NCBI GenBank assembly: GCA_035645145.1
Contig: DASQNC010000073.1
Span: forward strand, 102,955-166,954
Length of the DNA stretch: 64,000 bases
Reading direction: 5' to 3'
DNA from: Azospirillaceae bacterium
GTDB taxonomy: Bacteria; Pseudomonadota; Alphaproteobacteria; Azospirillales; Azospirillaceae
The notes under the pieces are model-generated. The model was given only the letters and a program-made list of their open reading frames with translations. It had not been told where the DNA came from and made no database searches. Positions 3,341 to 63,045 of this stretch are shown in pieces (within the stretch, counting starts at the first letter, position 1; the number at the start of each line of letters is the position of its first letter). A program made the position numbers and the translations under genes.

Positions 3341-3560
3341 CACCCCCATGCTCCAACGCTTGCCTGTCCCTGCCGGATGTGACGTGGTCCCGGACGCACG
3401 TTGTCGCGGCAGCGGGCCATGACAAGCGGCCTCGCGCACCGCCTTTCCCCCGCTTCAGCCCAAACCACCCAACTTGCGCCTGTGACGGCAAAGCAGAAAT
3501 CGCATAAGAATGCGGTACGTCCCCCACCCGTTTGGAAGCTGCGACCGAAAGGACCAGTCC

Positions 3561-6500
3561 GTGACCGCCGTCCAGGCTACCCCGTTTGATACGCGATTTC
3601 TTGCAGGCGGTGGAAAATCCGGGGAGCTCATTGCCGCACACGATTGGGCCGCCACACCGCTTGGGCCGATCGAAAATTGGCCGGCATCGCTCCGGATCGC
3701 GCTGGGGATGATTCTCAATTCCGGGTTCCCCAGCTTCCTGGCATGGGGGCCGCAACTCATCAGCTTCTACAATGACGCCTACCGGCCGTTCCTGGGCAGC
3801 AAACCCGAAGGGATCGGGCGTCCCCTGCCCGAGGTATGGGCGGAAATCTGGGACGAGATCGGCCCGATCACGGCCCGGGGGATGGCCGGGCATGCGAGCT
3901 TCCACGAGAACGAACCCCTGCTCGTGCCGAACGACTCGGCCGGCAAGCAGATCTGGCGGACCTTCTCGTGTTCGCCGGTGCGCAACGAGGACGGCACGGT
4001 GGGCGGCGTGCTCTGCACCATCCTTGAGACGACGCCGACCGTTCTTGCGGAACGACGCCTCCGCTTCCTGGTGGAACTGGGGGACACATTGCGTGCGGCC
4101 GAAGGTCCGGTCGCCATCACCCAGGCGGCGGCGGCGGCTCTAGGCCGTTACCTGGGCGCGAACCGGACCGGCTACGGTGAATTCGATCCGTCCGGCGAGG
4201 TGGTTTCGGTCAAACGCGATTGGACCGACGGGACCGTGGCCTCGCTTGCGGGCGAGACGCGCACGATCATGGCATTCGGACCGGCCCTGGTCTCCGAGCT
4301 GCGCGCCGGACGCACCCTGGTGGTCGAGGACTGCCATACCGACCCGCGGACCTCCGATCCGAGTCATCAGGCCGTATGGGACCGCACCGGCGTGCGGGCC
4401 GCCATTGTCGTCCCATTGATCCATGGCGGGCGGCTGAGTGCCGCCCTCTACACCCATTCCTCCCTGCCACGGACATGGACTGCGGCCGAAGTGGCGCTTG
4501 CCGAGGATGTGGCGATGCGCACCTGGGCCGCTTATGCCCAGGCCCGGGCCGAGGCCGACCTGCGCGAGAGCGAGGCGCGCATGGAGCTCGCCGTGTCCGC
4601 GTCCGGAGGCGGCATCTGGGACTGGGATCTGCTGACCAACCGCTTCACCTGTTCGCCCCGGGCCAAGGCGATCTACGGCTTCGCCCCGGACCAGGAGGTG
4701 ACCTACAAGGGTATCCGCAGGGTCATCCACCCGGAAGATCTCCCGCTTGTGGCTGCCGCGGCCCGGCGTGCCCTGGACCCCGCCATCCGGGCCCAGCCCA
4801 TCTTCGAGTACAGGATCGTGCGGCCGGACGGGGCCGTGCGCCATGTGGTCGCGCACGGCAAGGTGGTTTTCGCCCTGGTCGACGGCCAGGAACGCGCGGT
4901 CCGGTACGCCGGCAGCTTGCAGGACATCACCGAGCGCTGGTGGTTGCAGCAGGAGCGGGTCGCCAACGAGGCGCGCCTGCGGCTTGCGCTCGGCGCCGGC
5001 CGGATGGCGGCCTGGGAAGCCGACATGGAGACGGGCGCGCTGGTCGGCACGCCGGAACTCAAGCGGCTGCTCGGCTTCGCCGACCACGAGAATCCGACCG
5101 TTTACGACGTGATGAACCGCTATTACCCCGGCGAACGGGAGCGGCTCCAGGCGGTCGGCAAGGCGGCCCGGGAGCGGGGCGAACAGTTCGCGGAGGCCGA
5201 GTTCCGATACGTCCGGCCCGACGGCTCGCTTCGTTGGATGCTGCTGCGGAACCAAGCGGTTCTGGACCCGGAAGGACGGATGTTAAGGGCGGTCGGTGTC
5301 CTGATGGACATCACCGAGCGCAAACGGATCGAGGAGGTTCTGCGCGAGCAGGAGCGCCGGCAGGCGTTCCTGCTGGAACTCGGCGACAACCTGCGCAAGC
5401 TGACCGAACCCGCGGCAATCATGGGGGCCGCGGCCGAAGCGCTGGGCCGGCATCTCGGGGCCTCGCGGGTCGGCTACTGCGAAGTGGAGCCCGGCCAGGT
5501 CCACTTCACGGTTCCGAGGGATTGGACCGACGGCACGGTGGTCAACCTGACCGGCCGCTTCCGCATGGACGACTTCAGCCCCTTGCTGGCCGCGGAGATG
5601 ATGCACGGCCGAACCGCGGCCCAGGACGACGTCGCGACCCACCCGCTGACGGCCGGCGCCAAGGATTCGTTCGCCGCCATCCAGATCCGGTCGAATCTTG
5701 CCGTCCCGCTGATCAAGGGCGGCATCCTGACCGCGATGATGTTCGTGAACTATCGCGACACCCATGCCTGGACCACCGACGAAATCTCGCTGGTCGAGGA
5801 TGTGGCCGAGCGCACATGGTCGGCCGTGGAGCGCGCGCGGGCCGAATCGCTGCTGAAGGAAAGCGAGGCCCGATTCCGCGGCGTGTTCGAATCCGACCTG
5901 ATGGGCTTCAGCATCCTCGACACGCGCACGGGCGAGACGCTTGCCATCAATGACAGCCTCCTCCGGATGACAGGCTACACCCGCGCCGACTTCGAAGCGG
6001 GACGGGGCGACCGGCGGGCGTTCACGCCCGAGGAATACCGGGCCATCGACGAGGCTGCGATCGCCCTGGCACGCAGCCGCGGCTGGTGGGATCCCTACGA
6101 AAAGGAATATCTCCGGCCGGACGGCACCCGCCTGCCGGTCCGTGTCTCGTCCGCCCCCCTGCCCGGCGAACCCGGCCGCGTGGTGGTTTCGGTCCAGGAC
6201 ATAACCCAGGAGCGGGCCGCGCTCGCGGCGCTGCGGGAGTCGGAGGAGCGTTTCCGCACCATCGCGGACTCCGCCCCCGCGCTCATCTGGATGACCGACA
6301 CCGAGGCGCAGGTCACCTTCGCCAACACCCACCATGAGCGGAAATTCGATCTTCCGCCCGAAGCGATCCTGCGGAACGGTTGGCGCCAGGTGGTCCATGC
6401 CGACGACGTGGAGGCGTTCTCGGCCCTGTTCGCCAACGCCATCCGAACGCGAAAGCCGTTCGTCTCGGAAATCCGCGTCTGGGACAAGAAGGGACGCCTG

Positions 6501-7880
6501 CGCTGGTTGAGCTGCCAGGGCGTGCCCCGCTTTGACGGTGCGGGCACCTACCTCGGCCATACGGGTACCAATGTCGACATAACCGAGGCCAGGATCGCCC
6601 GCGACGAGCTCGAGCGGCTGATCGAGGAGCGCACCGCCGAACTCGCCGCCGCCAATCGGCAGCTCGTGGGGCAAATCGAGGAGCGGGAGAAAGTCGAGGC
6701 CACCTTGCGCAAGATGCAGCGGCTGGAAGCGGTGGGCCAGCTGACATCCGGCGTCGCGCACGACTTCAACAACCTGCTCACCGTGGTGCTCGGCAATATC
6801 GGCTTCGTCGAGCGCGCCGTCGCCAAGGCGGGCGTGGACGACAAGATCCTCGACCGTCTCGGCTACATGCGAACCGCCGCCGAGCGCGGGGCCACCCTGA
6901 CCGCACAGCTCCTCGCCTTCTCCCGCCGCCAGCGGTTGGAGGCGAAACCGGTCGACCTCAACGAAACCGTCGCCGGAATGCGCGATCTGCTCCAAAGTTC
7001 GATGGGCGGATCGGTGCAGTTGCAGACCGTCCTGGAGCCGGGGCTCTGGCCTGCGCTGGTCGACCCGACCCAGATCGAACTCGTGATCCTGAACCTCGCC
7101 ATCAATGCGCGCGATGCCATGGAGGTGGGCGGCTCACTGACGGTGGAGACGGAAAACGTCACCCTGGGCGAGCCCATCCGGCCCGAAGAGCCGCCGCCGG
7201 GCGATTATGTGATGGTGTCGGTTGCCGACACCGGCACCGGCATGACGGACGAGGTTCTGGCCAAGGCCTTCGAACCGTTCTTCACCACCAAACCGGTGGG
7301 CAAGGGCTCGGGCCTGGGCCTGGCCCAGGTCTACGGCTTCGCCAAACAGTCGGGCGGCGGTGTGCGGATCGAGACCCGCCTCGGCGCGGGCACCACGGTA
7401 AAGGTGTTCCTGCCGCGCGCGGCCCAGCCGAACGCGGTCGCGCGCGAGACGGAGACCTTCGATTCCGGCGACCGCATTGAGGGGCCTCCGCGCCGCGTGC
7501 TGCTCGTCGACGACGACAACGCCGTGCGGGAGGTGACCGCGATCATGCTGCAGGACCTCGGCTGCGAAGTGGTGGAAGCCGGGAGCGGCGGAGCTGCGCT
7601 GGACATCATCGAACGGGACCCGCAGCCCTTCGATTTGATGGTCGTCGACTTCGCGATGCCCGGCATGAACGGGGCGGAGGTGGCCCGCGAGGTTGCCGTG
7701 CGCCGGCCGGGCCTGCCGGTTCTGTTCGTCACCGGGTACGCCGACCTGACCGCATTGGGCGACGTCGCAGAGGACCGCATCGTGCAAAAGCCCTTCCGCG
7801 GGGACGTGCTGACGGCGAAGGTGCGCCGCCTTCTCGGCGTTGCGGAACGGATGATCGATGCCGTTCCGCTTTCACGCTGA
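3561..7880 (+). CDS. Hybrid sensor histidine kinase with five PAS and two GAF domains
   Basis: Large soluble hybrid kinase of 1439 residues with no membrane segment. Approximate order: PAS-like 25-150, GAF 165-323, PAS 337-458, PAS 469-585, GAF 597-760, PAS 767-880, PAS 893-1006, coiled coil to 1045, HisKA with phospho-acceptor H1067 in [11 protein letters not shown], HATPase with NARDAM, DTGTGM and GKGSGLGL boxes, and a C-terminal receiver with acidic pocket DDD and acceptor D1363 (VVDFAMPG). The HDFNN box and C-terminal receiver place it with the class of kinases that phosphorylate their own receiver. The start chosen is GTG 3561, preceded by GAAAGGA at 7 nt; an ATG at 3510 is possible but lacks a ribosome site. 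It appears monocistronic. Ligand unknown. Confidence 0.93.
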
Positions 7881-50875: not shown

Positions 50876-51931
50876 TCAGGCGGCGGGCGGAACCAGCGGG
50901 CCGCTGGCCTCGTCCCGGAAATGGCAGGCGGCGCGGTGGCCCGGATGGACCTCCAACGGTTCCGGCACATCGCGGGCACAGATGGCTTCGGCGCGCGGAC
51001 AACGGGTGCGGAAGACGCAACCCGACGGCGGGTTGAGCGGCGACGGCAGGTCGCCGGTCAGCACGATGCGCTTCTTGGCCCGCTCCAGGTCCGGGTCGGG
51101 GATCGGCACGGCCGAAATCAGGGCCCGGGTATAGGGGTGGCGGGGGTTGCGGTAGATCTCGTCCCGGTCCGCCATCTCCATCAGCCGGCCCAGGTAGAGC
51201 ACCAGGATCCGGTGGCTGATGTGGCGCACCACGGACAGGTCGTGGCTGATGAAGATCAGCGACAGGCCGAATTCGCGCTGGAGGCGCATCAGCAGGTTGA
51301 CGATCTGCGCCTGGATCGACACGTCCAGCGCCGACACCGGCTCGTCACACACGATCAGCTTGGGCCGCAGCACCATCGCCCGGGCGATGCCGATGCGTTG
51401 GGCCTGCCCGCCCGAGAATTCGTGCGGGTAGCGGTTCACCATCTCCGGCGACAGGCCGACCTTGGCCATGATGTCCCGGACCTGCGCGCGCCGCTCGGCG
51501 GCGGACATTCCGGGCGCATGGGTGACCAGCGGCTCGGCGATGATGTCGCCCACCGTCATGCGCGGGTCGAGCGAGGCCAGCGGATCCTGGAAGATGATGG
51601 TCATGTCCTTGCGGCGCGGACGCATCGCGCCTTCGGACAGGCGGGTCAGATCCTCGCCCAGCCAGGCCACCGTGCCGGCGGTCGGCGGGATCAGCCGGAG
51701 CACCGCCCGGCCGAGCGTGGACTTGCCGCAGCCGCTTTCGCCGACCACGCCCAGGGTCTCGCCCTCGGCCAAGTCGAAGCTGACGCCGTCCACCGCCTTC
51801 AGATAGTCCGGGCGGCGGAACAGTCCGCGCTTCATTTCGAAATGAACCTTCAGGTCCCGCACCGACAACAGCGTCCGTCGGGGGCTCCCGGTGGGCAGGG
51901 ACGAATTCGGCGTGTCGAAGACGGCCGTCAT
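50876..51931 (-). CDS. oppF: Peptide ABC transporter ATP-binding protein (OppF/DppF)
   Basis: Second ATPase of the importer, 351 residues. Walker A is [15 protein letters not shown]-loop [12 protein letters not shown], signature SGGQAQRI, Walker B LIVCDEP and the switch H in FISHDLS. The C-terminal oligopeptide domain has four Cys in [17 protein letters not shown], the known iron-sulfur/zinc-like motif of Opp/Dpp ATPases. The ATG overlaps the oppD stop by four bases, so translation is coupled. Confidence 0.94.
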
Positions 51932-52941
51932 ACCAGCGCCTCCAGATGGCAGGCCTTGAAGCGTTCGGGTGCGATGTCGCGCAGGACCGGGCGCTCGTCC
52001 CGGCAGCGGTCGAAGGCGTGTCGGCAGCGCGGGGCGAAGGCGCAGCCCCTGGGCAGGCGTTGCAGGTTCGGGGGCTGGCCCGCGATGGTCTGCAACTCGG
52101 CCCGGTCGGTCTCGTCGACCCGCGGCATCGAGGCGAGCAGGCCCGCCGTGTACGGGTGCTGGGGCGCGTAGAAGATGTCGCGCACGGGCCCCTGCTCCAC
52201 GATCCGGCCGGCGTACATGACCGCGACCCGGTCCGCCAATCCCGCGATCACACCCAGGTCGTGGGTGATCATGACGATGGACGTGTTCAGCTCGCGCTTC
52301 AGATCCTGCATCAGGTCCAGGATCTGCGCCTGCACGGTGACGTCGAGCGCGGTCGTCGGCTCGTCCGCGATCAGCAGGTCGGGCCGGCACAGGAGCGCCA
52401 TGGCGATCATCACACGCTGGCGCATACCGCCCGAGAACTCGTGCGGGTACATGTGGATGCGGCGCTTGGCCTCCGGAATGCGGACGAGGTCCAGCATCTC
52501 GATGGCACGTTGCAGCGCCTGCGCCTCGCTCATCTTCTGATGCAGGACCAGCACCTCGGTGAGCTGCCGGCGCACCGTCAGGTACGGGTTGAGCGAGGTC
52601 ATGGGGTCCTGGAAGATCATGGCGATCTGCCGGCCGCGGATCTTGTTCAGCTCCCGCGGCGGTAGGCCCAGGATCTCGCGGCCCTGGAACCGGACCGACC
52701 CGGTGGCGCTGCCGTTGGACGCCAGCAGCCCCATGATCGTCATGAAGGTCTGGCTCTTGCCGGACCCGCTCTCGCCCACCACCCCCAGGGTTTCGCCGGG
52801 GGCGATGGACAGGTTGATGTCGGTGACCGCCTGCACCTCGCCCTCGGGCGTGGCGAAGCGGGTGGTCAGATTGGTGATTTCCAGGACGGGAACGGCCACC
52901 TCGGGTGCGGCGGCTCCCGCGGTCTTGTGCAGGGCGACCAT
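51928..52941 (-). CDS. oppD: Peptide ABC transporter ATP-binding protein (OppD/DppD)
   Basis: First ATPase of the importer, 337 residues. Walker A GESGSGKSQTFMTIM, signature SGGMRQRV, Walker B LLIADEPTTALDVT and H-loop ITHDLGV are intact. The C-terminal oligo_HPY domain with CAFAPRCRHAFDRCRDE is present. It starts 2 nt after the oppC stop, with AGGACCGCTGACC just upstream. Confidence 0.94.
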   Translation of the reverse strand: MVALHKTAGAAAPEVAVPVLEITNLTTRFATPEGEVQAVTDINLSIAPGETLGVVGESGSGKSQTFMTIMGLLASNGSATGSVRFQGREILGLPPRELNKIRGRQIAMIFQDPMTSLNPYLTVRRQLTEVLVLHQKMSEAQALQRAIEMLDLVRIPEAKRRIHMYPHEFSGGMRQRVMIAMALLCRPDLLIADEPTTALDVTVQAQILDLMQDLKRELNTSIVMITHDLGVIAGLADRVAVMYAGRIVEQGPVRDIFYAPQHPYTAGLLASMPRVDETDRAELQTIAGQPPNLQRLPRGCAFAPRCRHAFDRCRDERPVLRDIAPERFKACHLEALV

Positions 52942-52943
52942 GG

Positions 52944-53840
52944 TCAGCGGTCCTTTGGATCAAGCGCGTCGCGCAAGCCGTCGCCGATGAAGTTCAGGCA
53001 GAACAGCGTCGCGGCGAGGAAAACCGCGGGAAAGATGAGCATCCAGGGCGCGGACTCCAGATTCTGCGCCCCTTCGCTGATCAGCACACCCCAGCTTGTC
53101 CACGGCTCCTGGACCCCCAGGCCCAGGAACGAGATGAAGCTTTCCAGCAGGATGACCCGGGGAACCGTCAGGGTCATGTAGACGATCACCGGCCCCAGCG
53201 TGTTCGGCACGATGTGCCGCAGGATGATGGCGCGGTGGGACACCCCCATGGCGCGTGCGGCTTCCACGAATTCCCGCTGCTTCAGGCTGAGGGTCTGGCC
53301 CCGGACGATGCGGGCCATGTCCAGCCATTCGATGGCCCCGATCGCGACGAAGATCAGGAAGATGTTCCGGCCGAACACCACCATCAGCATGATCACGAAG
53401 AACATGAACGGCAGCGAGTACAGGATGTCGACCAGGCGCATCATCACGCTGTCGACCCGGCCGCCGAAATAGCCCGCCGTGGCGCCGTACAGGACACCGA
53501 TCACCAGACTGACAATGGTGGCGATCAGGCCGACCAGCAGCGAGATGCGGCCGCCGAACATGGTGCGGACCAGAAGGTCGCGGCCGTTGCCGTCGGTGCC
53601 GAACGGGTGGCTCGCCTCCGGCCCGGTGCGGATGTTGTCCCAGTCGATCTCGTCCAGCGGCCAGGGACTGACCCACGGCACGACGATGGCGGCCAGCGCG
53701 ATCAGCGACAGCACCACCATGCCGGACACGGCCGCCTTGTTGCGCAGCAAGCGCCGCCAAGCGTTCGCCCACAGGCTGCGGCCCTTGATCGGCGCCTCGG
53801 AGGGGGTTTGGCCGATCGGAGGGAATGTGACTTCGGTCAT
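52944..53840 (-). CDS. oppC: Peptide ABC transporter permease (OppC/DppC)
   Basis: A 298-residue inner-membrane permease with six predicted helices and a long N-terminal tail. Blocks seen: ANAWRRLLRNKAAVSGMVVLSLIALAAIVVPW (N-terminal helix), FGTDGNGRDLLVRTMFGGRISL (the OppC N domain) and the EAA-type loop EFVEAARAMGVSHRAIILRHIVPNTLGPVIV, which contacts the ATPases. It starts 18 nt after oppB. Confidence 0.94.
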   Translation of the reverse strand: MTEVTFPPIGQTPSEAPIKGRSLWANAWRRLLRNKAAVSGMVVLSLIALAAIVVPWVSPWPLDEIDWDNIRTGPEASHPFGTDGNGRDLLVRTMFGGRISLLVGLIATIVSLVIGVLYGATAGYFGGRVDSVMMRLVDILYSLPFMFFVIMLMVVFGRNIFLIFVAIGAIEWLDMARIVRGQTLSLKQREFVEAARAMGVSHRAIILRHIVPNTLGPVIVYMTLTVPRVILLESFISFLGLGVQEPWTSWGVLISEGAQNLESAPWMLIFPAVFLAATLFCLNFIGDGLRDALDPKDR

Positions 53841-53858
53841 TGCGCGGCGCTCCTCCGG

Positions 53859-54782
53859 TCAGCCCAGCTTCACCTTCGGGTCGAGCAGGCCGTAGACCAG
53901 GTCGACGATCAGGTTCATGATGACGATGAGGGTGCCGTAGAAGATCACCGTCCCCATCACCAGCGTGTAGTCGCGGTTCAACGCACCCTGGACGAAATAG
54001 CGGCCGATCCCGGGAATGCCGAAGATCGTCTCCACCACCACCGAGCCGGTGAGGATGCCCGCGCTGGCCGGCCCCAGGTACGACACCACCGGCAACAGCG
54101 CGGCCTTCAGCGCATGGCGCGACAGCATCACCCGATCCGGCAGGCCCTTGGCCCGCGCGGTGCGTATGAAGTTGGACCGCAGCACCTCGATCATGCTTCC
54201 GCGCGTCAGGCGCGAGACGTAGGCGATCTGGGGCAGCGCCAGGGTCAGGATCGGCAGCAGGACGAACTGGAAGGCGCCGCCGCCCCAGCCGCCCACCGGC
54301 AGCCATCCCAGATAGACGCCGAAGACCAGCGTCAGGATGGGGGCCGTGACGAAGGTGGGGATGGTGATGCCCGTCATGGACCCGGCCATGACCGCATAGT
54401 CGGTGCCCGTGTTCTGCCGCAGGGCGGCGATGGATCCCAGCGTCATGCCGACCAGCACGGCGATCAGCATGGCCGTGCCGCCGACGCGCAGGCTGGCCGG
54501 GAACCCGGACCACAGGAGCTGGGTGACCGTGAAATCCTTGACCTTGTACGACGGGCCGAAATCACCCCTCAGCACATTGCCCATGTAGATCAGGTACTGC
54601 TGGTGCAGGGGCTTGTCGAGGTGGTAGGCCGCCTTGACGTTCGCCTCGATCTCCGGCGGGAGCACGCGCTCTTCCGACAGCGGACCGCCGGGCGCCAGCC
54701 GCATCATGAAGAACGCCACCGTGATGATGATCAGCAGCGTCGGTATCGAGCCGAGTATCCGGCGGATCACATAGGACAGCAT
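53859..54782 (-). CDS. oppB: Peptide ABC transporter permease (OppB/DppB)
   Basis: A 307-residue permease with six predicted helices. MLSYVIRRILGSIPTLLIIITVAFFMMRLAPGGP is the canonical OppB N-terminus, which fixes the ATG at 54782. The EAA loop reads RSNFIRTARAKGLPDRVMLSRHALKAALLPVV, and the C-terminal VVETIFGIPGIGRYFVQGALNRDYTLVMG is typical. It lies 164 nt downstream of oppA, behind a stem-loop. Confidence 0.95.
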   Translation of the reverse strand: MLSYVIRRILGSIPTLLIIITVAFFMMRLAPGGPLSEERVLPPEIEANVKAAYHLDKPLHQQYLIYMGNVLRGDFGPSYKVKDFTVTQLLWSGFPASLRVGGTAMLIAVLVGMTLGSIAALRQNTGTDYAVMAGSMTGITIPTFVTAPILTLVFGVYLGWLPVGGWGGGAFQFVLLPILTLALPQIAYVSRLTRGSMIEVLRSNFIRTARAKGLPDRVMLSRHALKAALLPVVSYLGPASAGILTGSVVVETIFGIPGIGRYFVQGALNRDYTLVMGTVIFYGTLIVIMNLIVDLVYGLLDPKVKLG

Positions 54783-54866
54783 GTTCCAAGTCTCCCGGGC
54801 GGAAACGTCCCGCCCCCCGCGTGTCGCGTGGGAAACTGCCACGCGGGCCGACTGCTCCGAAAGGGA

Positions 54867-54894
54867 ACGGGCGGAGCATTACCGCTCCGCCCGT
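54867..54894 (-). promoter_or_regulatory. Intercistronic stem-loop between oppA and oppB
   Basis: Perfect 11-bp stem ACGGGCGGAGC (54867-54877) with GCTCCGCCCGT (54884-54894) and a 6-nt loop. Only a weak T-rich stretch follows on the minus strand (TCCCTTTCGG). It probably reduces read-through into the permease genes or protects the oppA 3' end. Confidence 0.6.
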
Positions 54895-54946
54895 GATCTT
54901 AGTCCGTTCGCAGGGCGGCGACCGGCCGCCCTGCCCGTCCGGAATG

Positions 54947-56536
54947 TCAGCGGAGCGACATCCAGCGGACGCGGTGGACGTCCCGGGTGTTGTCAACCCA
55001 GCCATCCAGCTTCTGCGACACAAGGTTCTTGGAGACGTAGTAGTAGATCGGAATGTTCGCGTAGGCGCCCAGGGCGATGCTTTCCGCCTCGCGCAGGATC
55101 TTCGCGCGGGCTTCCATGTCCCGGGTCTTCGCCGCCTGCTGCATCAACTCCTCGAACTTCGGGTCCTTGAAGCGGGCATAGTTCTGCTGGTTGCTCTGCT
55201 CGTACAGGAACAGGAAGTTCTGGGCATCCGGGTAGTCGGCGATCCAGGCGGCGCGGCCGATCTCGTAGTTGCCCTGGCGCAGGTTTTCGTAGTGGACGGC
55301 CACTTCCGAGTTGGACAGCTCGGCCTCGACGCCGAGCTTCTTCCACATCTGGGCGAGCGCCACAACGATCCGGCGATGATTTTCGCTGGTGTTGTAGGAC
55401 AGCTGGACCTTCAGCGGCTTGTCCGGGCCATAGCCGGCCGCCTTCAGCAGTTCGGCGGCCTTCTTCTCACGGTCGGCCTGGCTGTCGCGGAAGCCGGGGA
55501 CTTCGGCGGGCTGGCCGTAGTTGGGCACGTTCGGCGGCACGAAGCTGACGGCCGGGATCTCGCCGGTCTTGATGACCTTGTCGGTGATCGTCTGCCGGTC
55601 GACGGCCAGCGCCAACGCCTGGCGGACGCGGACGTCATCGAACGGCTTCTTGGTCGTGTTGATGGTGAAGTAGTAGATGCCGAGGTACGGCGCGATGCGC
55701 GTCTCCTTCGGCAGGGTCTGGCGCAGCGTGTCGATCTGGTCCGACGGGAAATCGGCCGCATAGTCGATCTCGCCGGCGCGGAACTGGCGCACGACGGCGC
55801 TGCGGTCCTCGTTCGGGATGAAGACGACCCGGTCGATCTTGACGTTGGCGGCGTCGAAGAAGCGCGGGTTCTTCTCCATCACGATCTGGGTCTGCGGCGT
55901 CCACTCCTTCAGCACGTACGGGCCGTTGCCGACGTAGTTGCCGGGCTTGACCCAGTCCTTGCCGAGCTTTTCGACCGCATGCTTGGGCACCGGCCACGCG
56001 GTGTAGTGGGTCAGCAGCTCAAGGAAGAAGGGGGTCGGGTTTTCGAGGGTGATCTGGAGGGTGTTGGCGTCGATCGCCTTCACGCCCAGGTTTTCCATCC
56101 CCTCCATCTTCTTGCTGTTCAGCGCCGCGGCGTTCTTGATCGGGTACATGATCGAGGCGTACTTGGCCGCGCGCGCCGGATCCAGGATCCGCCGGTAGGC
56201 GTACACGAAATCCTCGGCCGTGACCGGCTGGCCGTCCGACCAGGTGGCGCCCTGGCGCAGCTTGAACGTGTAGGTCAGGCCGTCGTCGCTGATGGTCCAG
56301 CTTTCGGCGGCGCCGGGGATGGCTTTGCCTTCCTTGTCCTCTGTCAGCAGGCCCATGAGGAGTTCGCCGACCGGACGGTTCTCCCACGTGCCGGAGACGT
56401 CGTGCGGATCGAGCGAGGTGGGTTCGCCCATGTTGGCGATGCGGATGGTCGTCTGGGCCTGGGCGGCCGAGGCGCCGATCGAGGCCAGCGCGAGAGCGAG
56501 CGCCGTGCCTGCGAAGACTGTGCGGAGGCTGGTCAT
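54947..56536 (-). CDS. oppA: Peptide ABC transporter substrate-binding protein (OppA-like)
   Basis: Periplasmic binding protein of 529 residues, SBP family 5. A signal peptide (1-27, ending SAAQAQ) precedes TTIRIANMGEPTSLDPHDVSG, the classic OppA start. Further blocks are GLTYTFKLRQGATWSDGQPVTAEDFVYAYRR, GNGPYVLKEWTPQTQIVMEKNP and IPIYYYVSKNLVSQKLDGWVDN near the end. Length and layout match binding proteins for oligopeptides. It is the first gene of oppABCDF. Confidence 0.95.
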   Translation of the reverse strand: MTSLRTVFAGTALALALASIGASAAQAQTTIRIANMGEPTSLDPHDVSGTWENRPVGELLMGLLTEDKEGKAIPGAAESWTISDDGLTYTFKLRQGATWSDGQPVTAEDFVYAYRRILDPARAAKYASIMYPIKNAAALNSKKMEGMENLGVKAIDANTLQITLENPTPFFLELLTHYTAWPVPKHAVEKLGKDWVKPGNYVGNGPYVLKEWTPQTQIVMEKNPRFFDAANVKIDRVVFIPNEDRSAVVRQFRAGEIDYAADFPSDQIDTLRQTLPKETRIAPYLGIYYFTINTTKKPFDDVRVRQALALAVDRQTITDKVIKTGEIPAVSFVPPNVPNYGQPAEVPGFRDSQADREKKAAELLKAAGYGPDKPLKVQLSYNTSENHRRIVVALAQMWKKLGVEAELSNSEVAVHYENLRQGNYEIGRAAWIADYPDAQNFLFLYEQSNQQNYARFKDPKFEELMQQAAKTRDMEARAKILREAESIALGAYANIPIYYYVSKNLVSQKLDGWVDNTRDVHRVRWMSLR

Positions 56537-57575: not shown

Positions 57576-58634
57576 TCAACCCCGCCGCGGCCCGCGCATC
57601 TCGTAGAGCATCCAAACGAACAGGGCCACCAGCACCATGGCGTTGGCCTGGTGCAGGGCCGCCACGGGGATGGAGACCTGCGACTGCACGGTCCCGATGC
57701 CCAGCGCGAACTGCGCCAACGTCGCCAGCAGCAGCGCCCGGGCGGCCCATGCCACGCGGCCCTCGCCCGATTTGGCGCGGGCCCAGAACGCCGCCACCGC
57801 CAAAAGCGTGCCGGCGGCCAGCACCCGGTGCGCCCACTGCACGGCCACGGCCTCCTCCACCAGGCTGATCCACCCGCCGAAACCCACCTCCGGCGGAATC
57901 CAGTGTCCGTTCATCGTCGGGAAGTCGGCGGCCGCGAGCCCGGCGTCCTGCCCGGCGACGAAAGCCCCCCAGCAGATGGTCGCGGCCAGGAGCGCCAGCG
58001 CGATATGGCCGTGGACCTTCAACCCCTTGGGCGCCGCCGCCCACTGGTGGGGACGGCGGTCCTCCAGCAGGCCGAGCGCGGTCCAGATCAGAAGCGCGTA
58101 GATCAGGATGGCGAGGCCGAGGTGCATGGCGAGGCGGTAGGGGCTGACGTCCACCCGGTCGGCCAGGCCGGATTGCACCATGTACCAGCCGACCACCCCC
58201 TGAAGGCCGCCCAGTGCGAACAGGCCGGCCAGCCGCGGGCGCAGCGGGCGCGGGATGCGGCCCTTGGCCCAGAACCAGACCAGCGGAACCAGGAAGGCCA
58301 AGCCGATCAGCCGGCCCCACAGGCGGTGCAGCCATTCCCAGAAATAGATCCGCTTGAAGTCGTCCAGGCTCATCCCCTTGTTGACCAACTGGTACTCGGG
58401 GATCCGCTGGTACTTCTCGAACTCGGCCATCCACTGCGCCTCGTTCAAGGGCGGGACGGCGCCGGTGACGGGCTGCCATTCGACGATGGACAGCCCGCTT
58501 TCGGTCAGGCGCGTGATGGCCCCGATCACGGCCATCGTGAAGACCATGCCGGCAACGAACAGAAGCCAGGAGGCGATGGCGCGGAGGTCGGCGCGCCCCT
58601 CGGCGCGGCCCCCCGCATCGGCAAGCGTGGTCAC
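57576..58634 (-). CDS. ctaA: Heme A synthase (CtaA/COX15)
   Basis: Inner-membrane enzyme oxidising the C8 methyl of heme O to give heme A for cytochrome oxidase. The 352 residues have eight hydrophobic helices. Family blocks: GAITRLTESGLSIVEWQPVTGAVPPLN at the N-terminus, EYQLVNKGMSLDDFKRIYFWEWLHRLWGR, QGVVGWYMVQSGL, NGHWIPPEV and VQWAHRVLAAGTLL with heme-binding histidines. Start ATG 58634 follows AAAGGACGACC. It is divergent from the fused oxidoreductase gene. Confidence 0.95.
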   Translation of the reverse strand: MTTLADAGGRAEGRADLRAIASWLLFVAGMVFTMAVIGAITRLTESGLSIVEWQPVTGAVPPLNEAQWMAEFEKYQRIPEYQLVNKGMSLDDFKRIYFWEWLHRLWGRLIGLAFLVPLVWFWAKGRIPRPLRPRLAGLFALGGLQGVVGWYMVQSGLADRVDVSPYRLAMHLGLAILIYALLIWTALGLLEDRRPHQWAAAPKGLKVHGHIALALLAATICWGAFVAGQDAGLAAADFPTMNGHWIPPEVGFGGWISLVEEAVAVQWAHRVLAAGTLLAVAAFWARAKSGEGRVAWAARALLLATLAQFALGIGTVQSQVSIPVAALHQANAMVLVALFVWMLYEMRGPRRG

Positions 58635-58830
58635 CGGCGGTCGTCCTTTCGCGTGTTCCGCGCACTAGATGGCACGGTCCGCGCGCACGTCAAATGCGGC
58701 GCGTCCGCCCCGCGGGGCCGGTCCCGCCCGCGGCCACGCCGCAACCGCCGCATGGGCATGCGCGATACGAATTCCCATTTCCTGGACGTTTGCGCTAGCA
58801 GTTGCGCGCTCCCGCCGGCCCGGACCCGAC

Positions 58831-61800
58831 ATGACCGTACTCCACCTCGCCTTCGGCCTTTCCTTCCAGGACCTGTACGCCCGCGACGGGCTCGTGCGCC
58901 TCGACCGCGAATTCCTGGCCTGGCTGGGGGATCGCGACACGGACCTGGCCAACCGCCTGCTCGCCGCCCGCGCCGCGCCGCCGGAAGGCAAGGCGGAAAG
59001 CGACCTTCTGGTCGAGCTCGGCCCCCACCTGGACGATTTCCTGGCCGAGCTGTTCGGCGTGCGGGCCGAGGTGGCGGAGCTGCGCGCCCGGCACCATGCG
59101 CTCGCGCCGCTCTACACGGTGAAGCGCAACTTCGTGCAGCGGCGCGCCGCCAAGTCGGTCAAGCCGGAGGACGCGGCGGCGCTGGACGGCGACACCCTCG
59201 CGGCGGGGCTGCGCCTCTTCGGCGCCGATCCCCTTGACGAACTCGCCTTCGCCCGCGCGGTGGAGGGCTGGATGTCGGACGAGGCCGCCAATGCGCCGGC
59301 TTTGGATCTGGCCGCCCGCTACGCCGCCTGGGCGCTGCATTCGGAGGCCGGCCGCCATCGCCATGGCAAAGGCGTGCTGTTCCAGGTGCCCCGCAAGCTG
59401 GATCCGATGCGCCTGGTGCCGGTTGAGACGGTGGAGATTGCCGGCGTCACCATGATGCGGCTGCCGGAGACCGAGCTGCGTCTGCGCGAAGGGTTCGGGC
59501 TGACCGACCAGGGCACCGACCTGAAGGGGGCGCTCGACGAGACCAACTACTGCATCTGGTGCCACCACCAGGGCAAGGACAGCTGCTCCAAGGGGATGCG
59601 CGACCGCAAGACCGGCGCGTTCCAGAAGAACACCTTCGGCGCGACCCTGGCGGGTTGCCCGCTGGAGGAGAAGATCAGCGAGATGCACGAGCTGAAGACC
59701 AAGGGTCTTCCGCTGGGCGCGCTCGCCATGACCACGGTCGACAATCCGATGTGCGCCGCGACCGGCCACCGGATCTGCAACGACTGCATGATGTCCTGCA
59801 TCTACCAGAAGCAGGAGCCGGTCGACATCCCGCAGGCCGAGACGCGCATCCTGAGGGACGTGCTGGCCCTGCCGTGGGGGTTCGAGATCTACGGGCTTCT
59901 GACGCGCTGGAACCCGCTGAACCTGCGCCGGCCGCTGCCGCGGCAGGAGACCGGGTACAAGGTGCTGGTGGTCGGCCTGGGTCCGGCCGGCTTCACGCTC
60001 GCCCACCACCTGCTGAACGACGGCCACACCGTGGTCGCGGTGGACGGGTTGAAGATCGAGCCGTTGCCGGCCGAGGTGTCGGGCGTGGACCTGCACGGCA
60101 ACCGCGCCCCCTTCCAACCCGTGCACGACCTGTCGCGACTGGTCGAGAATCTGGACGAGCGGGTGCTGGGCGGCTTCGGCGGCGTGGCCGAGTACGGCAT
60201 CACCGTCCGTTGGGACAAGAACTTCCTGAAGGTGGTCCGCCTGCTGCTGGAGCGGCGGTCGTCCTTCGCCATGTTCGGCGGCGTGCGGTTCGGCGGCACC
60301 GTCACGATCGACGGGGCCTTCGCCTACGGCTTCGACCATGTGGCGCTGTGCGCCGGCGCCGGGCGGCCCACCGTCATCTCGATGCCCAACAACCTGGCCC
60401 GCGGCGTGCGCCAGGCCTCGGACTTCCTGATGGCGCTCCAACTGACCGGGGCGGCCCGCACCGACACCATCGCCAGCCTGGAGATGCGCCTGCCCGTGGT
60501 GGTGATCGGCGGGGGCCTGACCGCCATCGACACCGCCACCGAGAGCCTCGCCTACTATCCGGTCCAGGTGGAGAAGTTCCTGGCCCGCTACGAGGTGCTG
60601 GCGGCCGAACGGGGCGAGGCGGCCGTGCGCGCCGACTGGACGGAGGAGGAGCGGCTGGTCGCCGACGAGTTCATCGCCCACGCGCAGGCGCTGCGGACGG
60701 AACGCGCGGCCGCCGCGGCCGAGGGCCGCCCCCCCCGCATCCTGGACATGCTGAACCGCTGGGGGGGATCGACCATCGCCTACCGCCGCCGGCTGCAGGA
60801 TGCGCCCAGCTACACCCTGAACCACGAGGAAGTGGCGCTCGCCATGGAGGAGGGCATCCGCTTCGTGGAGAACGCCACCCCGGTCGGGGTGGAGGTGGAC
60901 CGGTTCGGGCACGCCGCGGCCCTGAAGGTGCGCTTTGCCGACGGGGCCGAGGCCACCCTGCCCGCCCGCACGGTGCTGGTGGCGGCCGGCACGCAGCCCA
61001 ACACGGTCCTGGCGCGCGAGGCGCCGGGGTGGGTGAAGCTGGACGGCAAGTACTTCCGCGCCCTCGACGAGGACGGCCGGCCGGCGGTGCCCGAGCGGGT
61101 GTCGAAGCCGGCGGAGGTGCGCGTGCTGACCGCGCGGACGCCGGACGGCCGCGGGGTGAGCTTCTTCGGGGACATGCATCCGTCGTTCGCCGGCAACGTG
61201 GTGAAGGCCATGGGCGGGGCGAAGCAGGGCTATCCGGTGATCAGCCGGCTGCTGGCCCGCCGTCCGCCGGCACCCGTCGAAGGCGGCGACATCATCGCCC
61301 GGATGACGGACGAGCTTCGGCCGGTGGTGCATTCCGTCGAGCGGCTGACGCCCACCATCGTCGAAATCGTGGTCAAGGCGCCGGCGGCCGCACGGGCGTT
61401 CGAGCCCGGGCAGTTCTACCGCCTGCAGAACTTCGAGACGCTGGCGCCCCGGGTGGAGGGGACCACGCTCGCCATGGAAGGGCTGGCGCTGACCGGCGCC
61501 TGGGTGGACAAGGACAAGGGCCTGCTGTCGGCCATCGTGCTGGAAATGGGCGGGTCGTCCGACCTGTGCGCCCACCTCAAGCCGGGCGAGCCGATCGTGC
61601 TGATGGGGCCGACCGGAACCCCGACCGAGATCGGGGCCGGCGAAACCCTGTGCCTTGTGGGCGGGGGTCTTGGCAACGCGGTGCTGTTCTCCATCGGGCA
61701 GGCGGCGCGTGCCAAGGGCTGCCGGGTGGTCTATTTCGCCGGCTACAAGCGGAGGGTCGACCGCTACAAGGTGGAGCAGATCGAAGCCGCGGCCGATGTC

Positions 61801-62295
61801 GTGGTCTGGGCCTGCGACGAGGCGCCGGGCTTCCGGCCCGCGCGGCCGCAGGACAAGGCCTTCGTCGGCAACATCGTGGCGGCCATGCGCGCCTATGCGG
61901 CGGGCGAACTGGGCGAGCCGGCGATCCCGCTGGCCAAGGCCGACCGGATCGTCGCCATCGGGTCCGACCGCATGATGGCGGCCGTGGCCGCGGCCCGGCA
62001 CGGGGTGCTGGCCCCGTACGTGAAGCCGGGGCACTTCGCCATCGGATCCATCAACAGCCCCATGCAGTGCATGATGAAGGAGATCTGCGCGCAGTGCCTG
62101 CAGCGCCAGATCGATCCGGTCACGGGCGAGGAGAGCATCGTCTTCTCGTGCTTCAACCAGGACCAGGCGCTGGATGCGGTGGACTGGACCTGTCTGAATG
62201 AGCGCCTGCACCAGAACGCGGTGCAGGAGAAACTGACCCGTCAGTGGATCGACCGGACCCTGCGTCTGGCCCGGATCCGCACCGCGGCGGAATGA
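58831..62295 (+). CDS. NfnB-NfnA-like fused iron-sulfur flavoprotein oxidoreductase with an extra N-terminal domain
   Basis: A 1154-residue, cytoplasmic multi-cofactor protein. Residues 1-235 form a helical part I do not recognise. An iron-sulfur region follows with CIWC (C241/C244), C252, C276 and NPMCAATGHRICNDCMMSCI (C308, C316, C319, C323). Next is a GltD/NfnB-type flavin reductase: FAD fold VLVVGLGPAGFTLAHHLL (378-395) and NAD(P) fold VVVIGGGLTAIDTA (556-569). Residues 825-1150 resemble the NfnA/PyrK small subunit: flavin site PGQFYRLQ (859-866), nucleotide site CLVGGGLGNAVLF (941-953) and [2Fe-2S] cysteines C1080, C1086, C1089 and C1107. This is the arrangement of NADH-dependent ferredoxin:NADP oxidoreductase in one chain; bifurcation is inferred. 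The start is ATG 58831; a longer frame exists to 58669. Confidence 0.82.
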   Translation: MTVLHLAFGLSFQDLYARDGLVRLDREFLAWLGDRDTDLANRLLAARAAPPEGKAESDLLVELGPHLDDFLAELFGVRAEVAELRARHHALAPLYTVKRNFVQRRAAKSVKPEDAAALDGDTLAAGLRLFGADPLDELAFARAVEGWMSDEAANAPALDLAARYAAWALHSEAGRHRHGKGVLFQVPRKLDPMRLVPVETVEIAGVTMMRLPETELRLREGFGLTDQGTDLKGALDETNYCIWCHHQGKDSCSKGMRDRKTGAFQKNTFGATLAGCPLEEKISEMHELKTKGLPLGALAMTTVDNPMCAATGHRICNDCMMSCIYQKQEPVDIPQAETRILRDVLALPWGFEIYGLLTRWNPLNLRRPLPRQETGYKVLVVGLGPAGFTLAHHLLNDGHTVVAVDGLKIEPLPAEVSGVDLHGNRAPFQPVHDLSRLVENLDERVLGGFGGVAEYGITVRWDKNFLKVVRLLLERRSSFAMFGGVRFGGTVTIDGAFAYGFDHVALCAGAGRPTVISMPNNLARGVRQASDFLMALQLTGAARTDTIASLEMRLPVVVIGGGLTAIDTATESLAYYPVQVEKFLARYEVLAAERGEAAVRADWTEEERLVADEFIAHAQALRTERAAAAAEGRPPRILDMLNRWGGSTIAYRRRLQDAPSYTLNHEEVALAMEEGIRFVENATPVGVEVDRFGHAAALKVRFADGAEATLPARTVLVAAGTQPNTVLAREAPGWVKLDGKYFRALDEDGRPAVPERVSKPAEVRVLTARTPDGRGVSFFGDMHPSFAGNVVKAMGGAKQGYPVISRLLARRPPAPVEGGDIIARMTDELRPVVHSVERLTPTIVEIVVKAPAAARAFEPGQFYRLQNFETLAPRVEGTTLAMEGLALTGAWVDKDKGLLSAIVLEMGGSSDLCAHLKPGEPIVLMGPTGTPTEIGAGETLCLVGGGLGNAVLFSIGQAARAKGCRVVYFAGYKRRVDRYKVEQIEAAADVVVWACDEAPGFRPARPQDKAFVGNIVAAMRAYAAGELGEPAIPLAKADRIVAIGSDRMMAAVAAARHGVLAPYVKPGHFAIGSINSPMQCMMKEICAQCLQRQIDPVTGEESIVFSCFNQDQALDAVDWTCLNERLHQNAVQEKLTRQWIDRTLRLARIRTAAE

Positions 62296-62315
62296 GACGG
62301 GTGGACCGGGGGACC

Positions 62316-62606
62316 ATGAGCGAACAGACTTTCGTCGATTGGGCCAAGGCGCAGAAGGGCAAGTCCTTCGCCGAGGTCTACGCGGACACCTTCACCCTGC
62401 TCGAGAAGAGCGTCCCGCACACGATCGCCCCGGCCGATCGGGATTTCTTCCAGTCCGTGGCGCAATTCTTCATGTGGATGGACACGGGGGGGAAGCCGGA
62501 CCTCGCCCGCCCGGAGGATTGGGCGGCCGCCCGGCAGTTGGCCCGCGGTTTCATCCAGCGTCGGGACATGAAACCCGAGGCCATCCGGATCCTGGCAGGT
62601 CCCTGA
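62316..62606 (+). CDS. Small uncharacterised protein, partner gene of the fused oxidoreductase
   Basis: A 96-residue soluble protein starting at ATG 62316, 20 nt after the large oxidoreductase gene, with GGGGGA upstream. The sequence is mainly helical: FVDWAKAQKGKSFAEVYADTFTLLEK and FFQSVAQFFMWMDTGGKPDLARPEDW are visible. No cysteines or known motifs. The tight spacing suggests co-transcription and a possible regulatory or assembly role for the flavoprotein. Family not recognised. Confidence 0.68.
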   Translation: MSEQTFVDWAKAQKGKSFAEVYADTFTLLEKSVPHTIAPADRDFFQSVAQFFMWMDTGGKPDLARPEDWAAARQLARGFIQRRDMKPEAIRILAGP

Positions 62607-62652: not shown

Positions 62653-63045
62653 TCAGGCCGGCCGGCCGGGCCTGCCCACCCCCGCCGCGGCCTGGACCAG
62701 GACGGCAAGGAGCTGTTCGCGCGTGTAGGGCTTGACGATCAGCGCCGCCGCCCCGCATTCGGACAGGGCCGAGCGCACCTCCCCGTCCGCATGGCCGGTG
62801 GTGAGCACGGATACCACCCCATGCCGGTCGCGCAGGCTGCGCACCACCGCGTCGCCCTGCACGGGACCCTTCAGCGAGACGTCCACCAGGGCCAGGGCCG
62901 GACGGTGCGCATCCGCAAGCCGCAGCGCGTCCTCAGCCGACTCGGCGACCCCGACCACCCGGTAATCCGAACCGTTCAGGACCTCTTCCAGGTACATGGC
63001 GATCAACGCATCGTCTTCGACGATCAGCAACGGGTGCTGGGGCAA
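62653..63045 (-). CDS. Single-domain response regulator
   Basis: A 130-residue stand-alone receiver: VEDDALIAMYLEEVL for the acidic pocket, phospho-acceptor D54 in ALVDVSLKG, TTGH switch and LIVKPYTREQLL lysine. No output domain. It is convergent with the 96-residue gene (46-nt gap). Its kinase partner is not adjacent. Confidence 0.92.
   Translation of the reverse strand: MPQHPLLIVEDDALIAMYLEEVLNGSDYRVVGVAESAEDALRLADAHRPALALVDVSLKGPVQGDAVVRSLRDRHGVVSVLTTGHADGEVRSALSECGAAALIVKPYTREQLLAVLVQAAAGVGRPGRPA

Follow-up and report, generated by a model that had tools for sequence, protein, structure and literature searches.

What might a protein do that combines, in one polypeptide, the features of both subunits of NADH-dependent reduced ferredoxin:NADP oxidoreductase (NfnAB), an enzyme known from anaerobes, in bacteria that mostly carry the genes of oxygen respiration? 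This question is raised by a gene of 1154 codons for amino acids (aa) at 58831..62295 (+ strand) in a 64,000-nucleotide stretch of contig DASQNC010000073.1 from an Azospirillaceae bacterium, which we call the window. We see about an even chance that the product is a single-chain NfnAB relative with an extra head, likely serving as an NADPH-dependent ferredoxin reductase in such bacteria.

Architecture and cofactor sites of the fused protein

The gene call is based on the open reading frame (ORF; ATG at 58831, stop codon at 62293-62295), its homologs and an AlphaFold2 (AF2) model of the whole chain (pLDDT 93.3, pTM 0.92). The ATG at 58831, rather than the in-frame upstream ATG at 58669, is the likely start, because the match begins at residue 1-9 in 80 relatives, which are the best 80 genome-contig loci encoding a homolog. 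Family scans of the protein are weak or split, with Pyr_redox_2 above its cut-off at residues 376-571 and Fer4_20 below its own. Sequence profiles and structure comparison place an NfnB-like half first and an NfnA-like half second; the first-pass annotation, made from the sequence alone, had proposed such a B-then-A single chain, and the profile and structural matches bear it out, with every Fe-S ligand position conserved.

Conservation was judged in 71 sequences that are 33-75% identical to the window protein, with the aberrant locus L146 (described below) left out. Two [4Fe-4S] sites are predicted by conservation and profile alignment at 59551..59841 (+), with Cys 241, 244, 252, 276, 316, 319 and 323 and Glu 337 as ligands; these seven Cys and the Glu are invariant in 71/71, and residues 276-337 align with NfnL of 5jca/5vj7. 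The NfnB/GltD-like FAD and NADP(H) part follows (residues 376-811, 59956..61263, +), and none of the FAD/NADP motif residues checked there (382, 384, 387, 560, 562 and 567) varies either. It holds a long helical insertion at about residues 573-645 (60547..60765, +, from DSSP of the model); in the match to NfnL, alignment is missing here between profile positions 576 and 649. In the NfnA/PyrK-like part (residues 825-1143, 61303..62259, +), conservation and alignment predict a [2Fe-2S] site with Cys 1080, 1086, 1089 and 1107 (C-x5-C-x2-C-x17-C; 62068..62151, +), whose four Cys are invariant in 71/71 and align to the corresponding region of 5jca_S with a spacing one residue off. The NfnA flavin motif R-x-P-L-T is altered: where 5jca_S and 4ylf_A read ERIPLT, the Arg is absent in 71/71, the aligned position 884 being Gly in 66, Ala in 3 and Pro in 2. 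Of the cofactor motifs claimed earlier, those for Fe-S, FAD and NADP are present and the second flavin site is changed. At the level of sequence and confident models, the chain is shown to begin its redox part with an NfnB fold that holds the ligands of two [4Fe-4S] clusters as well as FAD and NADP motifs, and to continue with an NfnA fold in which four Cys form the [2Fe-2S] ligand set; it probably works like NfnAB.

Ahead of both halves lies a helical head domain of about residues 1-184 (58831..59382, +), the PF27156 region by newer Pfam labels. In the Pfam release that we searched, the window head (residues 1-212) matched no family, and 60 homologous heads gave 18 scattered hits, each in one member, with a best E of 0.0012. 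The newer precomputed labels assign PF27156 to the best 120 full-length proteins listed and likewise to 120 head-length fragments among the matches listed. The predicted helical shape had no match among the solved structures searched. The head of 235 residues that had first been described as matching no domain stays without a known fold in the profile and structure searches made.

Distribution of the family and redox genes of its carriers

A protein search scored 7999 candidates, all with E <= 0.001, the best 120 proteins listed covering 99-100% of the query at 69-97% identity, and a pattern search of genome contigs found a relative encoded by at least 582 of at least 590 hits. The titles of the best 80 of these loci name Alpha- and Betaproteobacteria, Gallionella, Nitrotoga, Acidobacteria, Planctomycetales and some further groups. 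Of 289 genomes sampled from the window's class, 65 carry the fused gene, some as pieces at contig ends; in a sample of its order a long match occurs in 35/82, that of G009 in two pieces, and G001, the only other genome of the window's own genus in this sample, gave no long match. A haem-copper oxidase of the COX1 family was found in 60/65 class carriers and not seen in the other five (G174, G191, G214, G294 and G311). The headed Nfn variant is widespread and as yet unassigned, in mostly oxidase-bearing bacteria.

In a midpoint-rooted FastTree tree, whose long branches leave depth unsure, the deepest branches are class genomes, mostly of reduced size; most betaproteobacterial sequences form one clade, and those of Acidobacteria and Planctomycetes another clade nested within. 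The common architecture is broken at L146:3109-6495 (-), where a 1129-aa frame has lost the NfnA half: its head and NfnB part lead into a complete AnmK kinase domain (766-1113), and it seems to be fused to anmK.

The mechanism that we propose would run as follows. Electrons of NADPH would enter at the NfnB-half flavin, from which one would pass via the two [4Fe-4S] clusters to ferredoxin and the other, by way of the [2Fe-2S] cluster and then a second flavin, to NAD+. The head may be a docking or regulatory module for ferredoxin or another acceptor, and the reduced ferredoxin may feed aerobic biosynthesis, for instance the assembly of Fe-S clusters or the making of haem A by the CtaA encoded divergently. 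Ferredoxin reduction from NADPH is our best reading. Each of the 7 genomes tried (7/7) has Fer2 ferredoxin domains.

A rival holds that the protein bifurcates electrons just as NfnAB does, as a genuine NADH/NADPH/ferredoxin transhydrogenase, and mainly balances the two nicotinamide pools. The presence of every Fe-S ligand set of Nfn, and of both halves that bind nucleotides, speaks for it, yet we consider it unlikely, at perhaps half the weight of our own proposal: the NfnA flavin-motif Arg is missing, bifurcating enzymes are nearly absent from aerobes in the available part of an earlier survey (PMC6085437), and proton-translocating PntB occurs in 58/65 carriers and 181/224 non-carriers, so the fused gene does not replace it. 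That the protein supplies nitrogenase, which the first-pass annotation had given as an example, appears very improbable. It is true that nifH occurs in 32/35 carriers against 33/47 non-carriers in the order sample (p 0.027, without kinship correction), and that, in the accessible text on Rhodopseudomonas palustris (PMC9973337), a variant of the Nfn-like AadN supports nitrogenase in a suppressor strain; however, the window's own genome (74 contigs, rated 100% complete) has no nifH at E <= 1e-80, and the example was not borne out.

Several results weigh against an NADPH-dependent ferredoxin reductase. Since the NfnA flavin-motif Arg is missing throughout, a second flavin cannot be taken for granted. 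Two genomes of a single genus, G039 and G319, retain a form whose match stops after the NfnB part and which lacks the NfnA half. In the class sample, 5 genomes have both the fused gene and FPR-type ferredoxin reductase, 60 the fused gene only and 53 FPR only (p 0.0044, without kinship correction, three of the five with both being of one genus), and 171/289 showed neither. In the order sample (27 both, 8 fused gene only, 45 FPR only, 2 neither; n=82), 27/35 carriers also have FPR and 2/47 non-carriers lack both, so the fused gene is no simple FPR substitute. No ferredoxin gene emerged as a fixed neighbour among the frequent neighbours of the 80 loci. Finally, ctaA stands beside the gene in none of the eligible loci titled Beta-, Acidobacteria or Planctomycete, and for this reason the pairing may be inherited gene order.

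Neighbouring genes

The divergent neighbour is ctaA for haem A synthase (COX15-CtaA; 57576..58634, -; Pfam PF02628, E 1.6e-105). Among named loci with enough upstream DNA, 29/69 have ctaA upstream on the opposite strand, 26 of them within 740 bp. In a wider set, where some pairs are identical sequences under two labels and 12 rows were not eligible, ctaA lies within 1 kb in 41/114, window included, and the trait requires 11 changes on the tree. The adjacency extends to the 56%-identical member L148; it is also seen in L010, which is titled Anaerolineae, but whose sequence groups among Alphaproteobacteria. According to the available part of PMC13213658, the mitochondrial counterpart of ctaA receives electrons from ferredoxin and ferredoxin reductase, and the fused protein, if the proposed function is true, would be a possible electron donor to CtaA in bacteria.

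Other contexts occur elsewhere. At L143:3778-8132 (+), a gene for an Mrp/ApbC-type Fe-S carrier ends 5 bp before the fused gene. At L153:8630-12267 (-), genes identified by scan as cysH, cysD and cysNC are directly upstream, the last ending 8 bp before it, and at L155 a cysNC gene is upstream; both favour electron donation for sulfate assimilation (to sulfite reductase). We still think this role quite unlikely, for the cys context was met in only 2/14 reduced-genome loci inspected, and no cys cluster ranks with the commonest genes around the fused gene in the 80 named loci. A ctaA-like sequence also lies about 4 kb upstream in L153, and a gene for a TLC ATP/ADP transporter (L152:3797-5383, +) is directly upstream in L152, pointing to an intracellular lifestyle.

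Downstream in the window, a 96-aa ORF (62316..62606, +) starts 20 nt past the stop codon, as first noted, and is possibly co-transcribed. Its codon score of 0.348 per codon is coding-like, near the bottom of the range for true windows (minimum 0.251, 5th percentile 0.356, median 0.621; wrong-frame windows: median -0.92, maximum 0.22). The protein set held one other homolog, 87% identical; among 59 relative genomes the product is convincing in its own only (next best E 0.002, 32% identity), and near the fused gene in the 80 loci no tblastn match was better than E 0.38. The gene is young or fast-evolving in its own lineage and no partner of the family. What stood of the earlier interpretation is the fused NfnB-NfnA chain with a head of no known fold, while the constant 96-residue partner and the nitrogen-fixation example fell away.

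Further along, the window has a stand-alone receiver domain (62653-63045, -), matched by tblastn at E <= 1e-5 only in its own genome among the loci searched, and a Usg-like small protein (PF06233; 63195-63548, -) between the fused gene and groES (63768), with tblastn matches in 22 other loci, mostly Azospirillaceae. Peptide-type ABC transporter genes lie at 50876-56536 (-), SBP_bac_5 and an OppC-type permease being found by scan and the ATPases and second permease assigned by eye. A 1456-aa hybrid sensor kinase with GAF, PAS, kinase and receiver domains is at 3510-7880 (+).

Significance and comparison with known systems

A wider scenario, which we put forward as speculative and unlikely, would be an overlooked aerobic branch of flavin-based electron bifurcation. 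Here a single-chain, headed Nfn would have arisen in Alphaproteobacteria and reached Beta- and Acidobacteria; it would produce ferredoxin of low potential in the presence of air, its new-fold head would gate the branch to ferredoxin, and the system would be linked to the synthesis of haem A and Fe-S clusters. As far as the accessible text of Poudel et al. (2018, PMC6085437) goes, bifurcating enzymes are nearly absent from aerobes except Fix; this family combines a full Fe-S ligand set with a haem-copper oxidase gene in those 60 of 65 sampled carriers.

The NCBI name would make the protein a glutamate synthase beta subunit-like part or a glutamine-using enzyme, which is hardly to be expected, as no amidotransferase or FMN large-subunit domain, as in GltBD, is among the families listed for the chain. 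A Neorickettsia paper uses the glutamate-synthase name in its available part (PMC5481527). If our proposal is true, it suggests that the 'glutamate synthase' label in the metabolic reading of an intracellular bacterium deserves re-examination, kinship of the Neorickettsia protein not being presumed.

With NfnAB/NfnI of Pyrococcus furiosus (5jca, 5jfc), and with the NfnAB of 4ylf/4yry from Thermotoga maritima, the window protein shares both folds and the sequence in which Fe-S, flavin and nucleotide motifs follow one another within each half. By sequence and model it has an NfnB fold that carries both [4Fe-4S] ligand sets together with FAD and NADP sites, and an NfnA fold that includes the ligands for [2Fe-2S], but not R-x-P-L-T; because that Arg is replaced, we do not count it among the NfnAB members. 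It differs further in being one B-then-A chain with an extra head and a helical insertion of about 70 residues, in its C-x5-C-x2-C motif, in an identity of 19-29% in structural alignments, and in the terminal oxidase genes of most of its carriers. Adrenodoxin reductase and FprA are not known to have Fe-S clusters or an NfnA half.

NF005128/PRK06567 is homologous, head included, aligning window residues 5-700 to profile positions 2-679, and L150 aligns to 2-1025 of its 1031 positions; its equivalog cut-off of 1072 bits is not reached by the window protein (748.6) or by six relatives, all seven falling below it (544-821). The window head has no match at E <= 1e-5 to NCBIfam NF009415 (944 aa), which is taken to be the Pattern C type, judged from length and order.

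Among fused Nfn homologs, AadN of Rhodopseudomonas palustris is likewise alphaproteobacterial, and genetics gives it a part in electron supply, which is proposed to run via ferredoxin; according to the accessible text it differs in being of Pattern B, at least 51% identical to PfNfnI, and required for anaerobic aromatic degradation (PMC9973337). Pattern C, the Mobiluncus curtisii type, is described in the available part of Liang et al. (2019, PMC6405883) as a single gene with the NfnA half C-terminal, present in some Alphaproteobacteria and about 950 aa long, about 200 residues over other fused Nfn. Compared by this description, the window protein shares the single chain and the C-terminal NfnA half; the B-then-A fused Nfn is already known, and the form in the window is a longer one, of 1154 aa, with a head.
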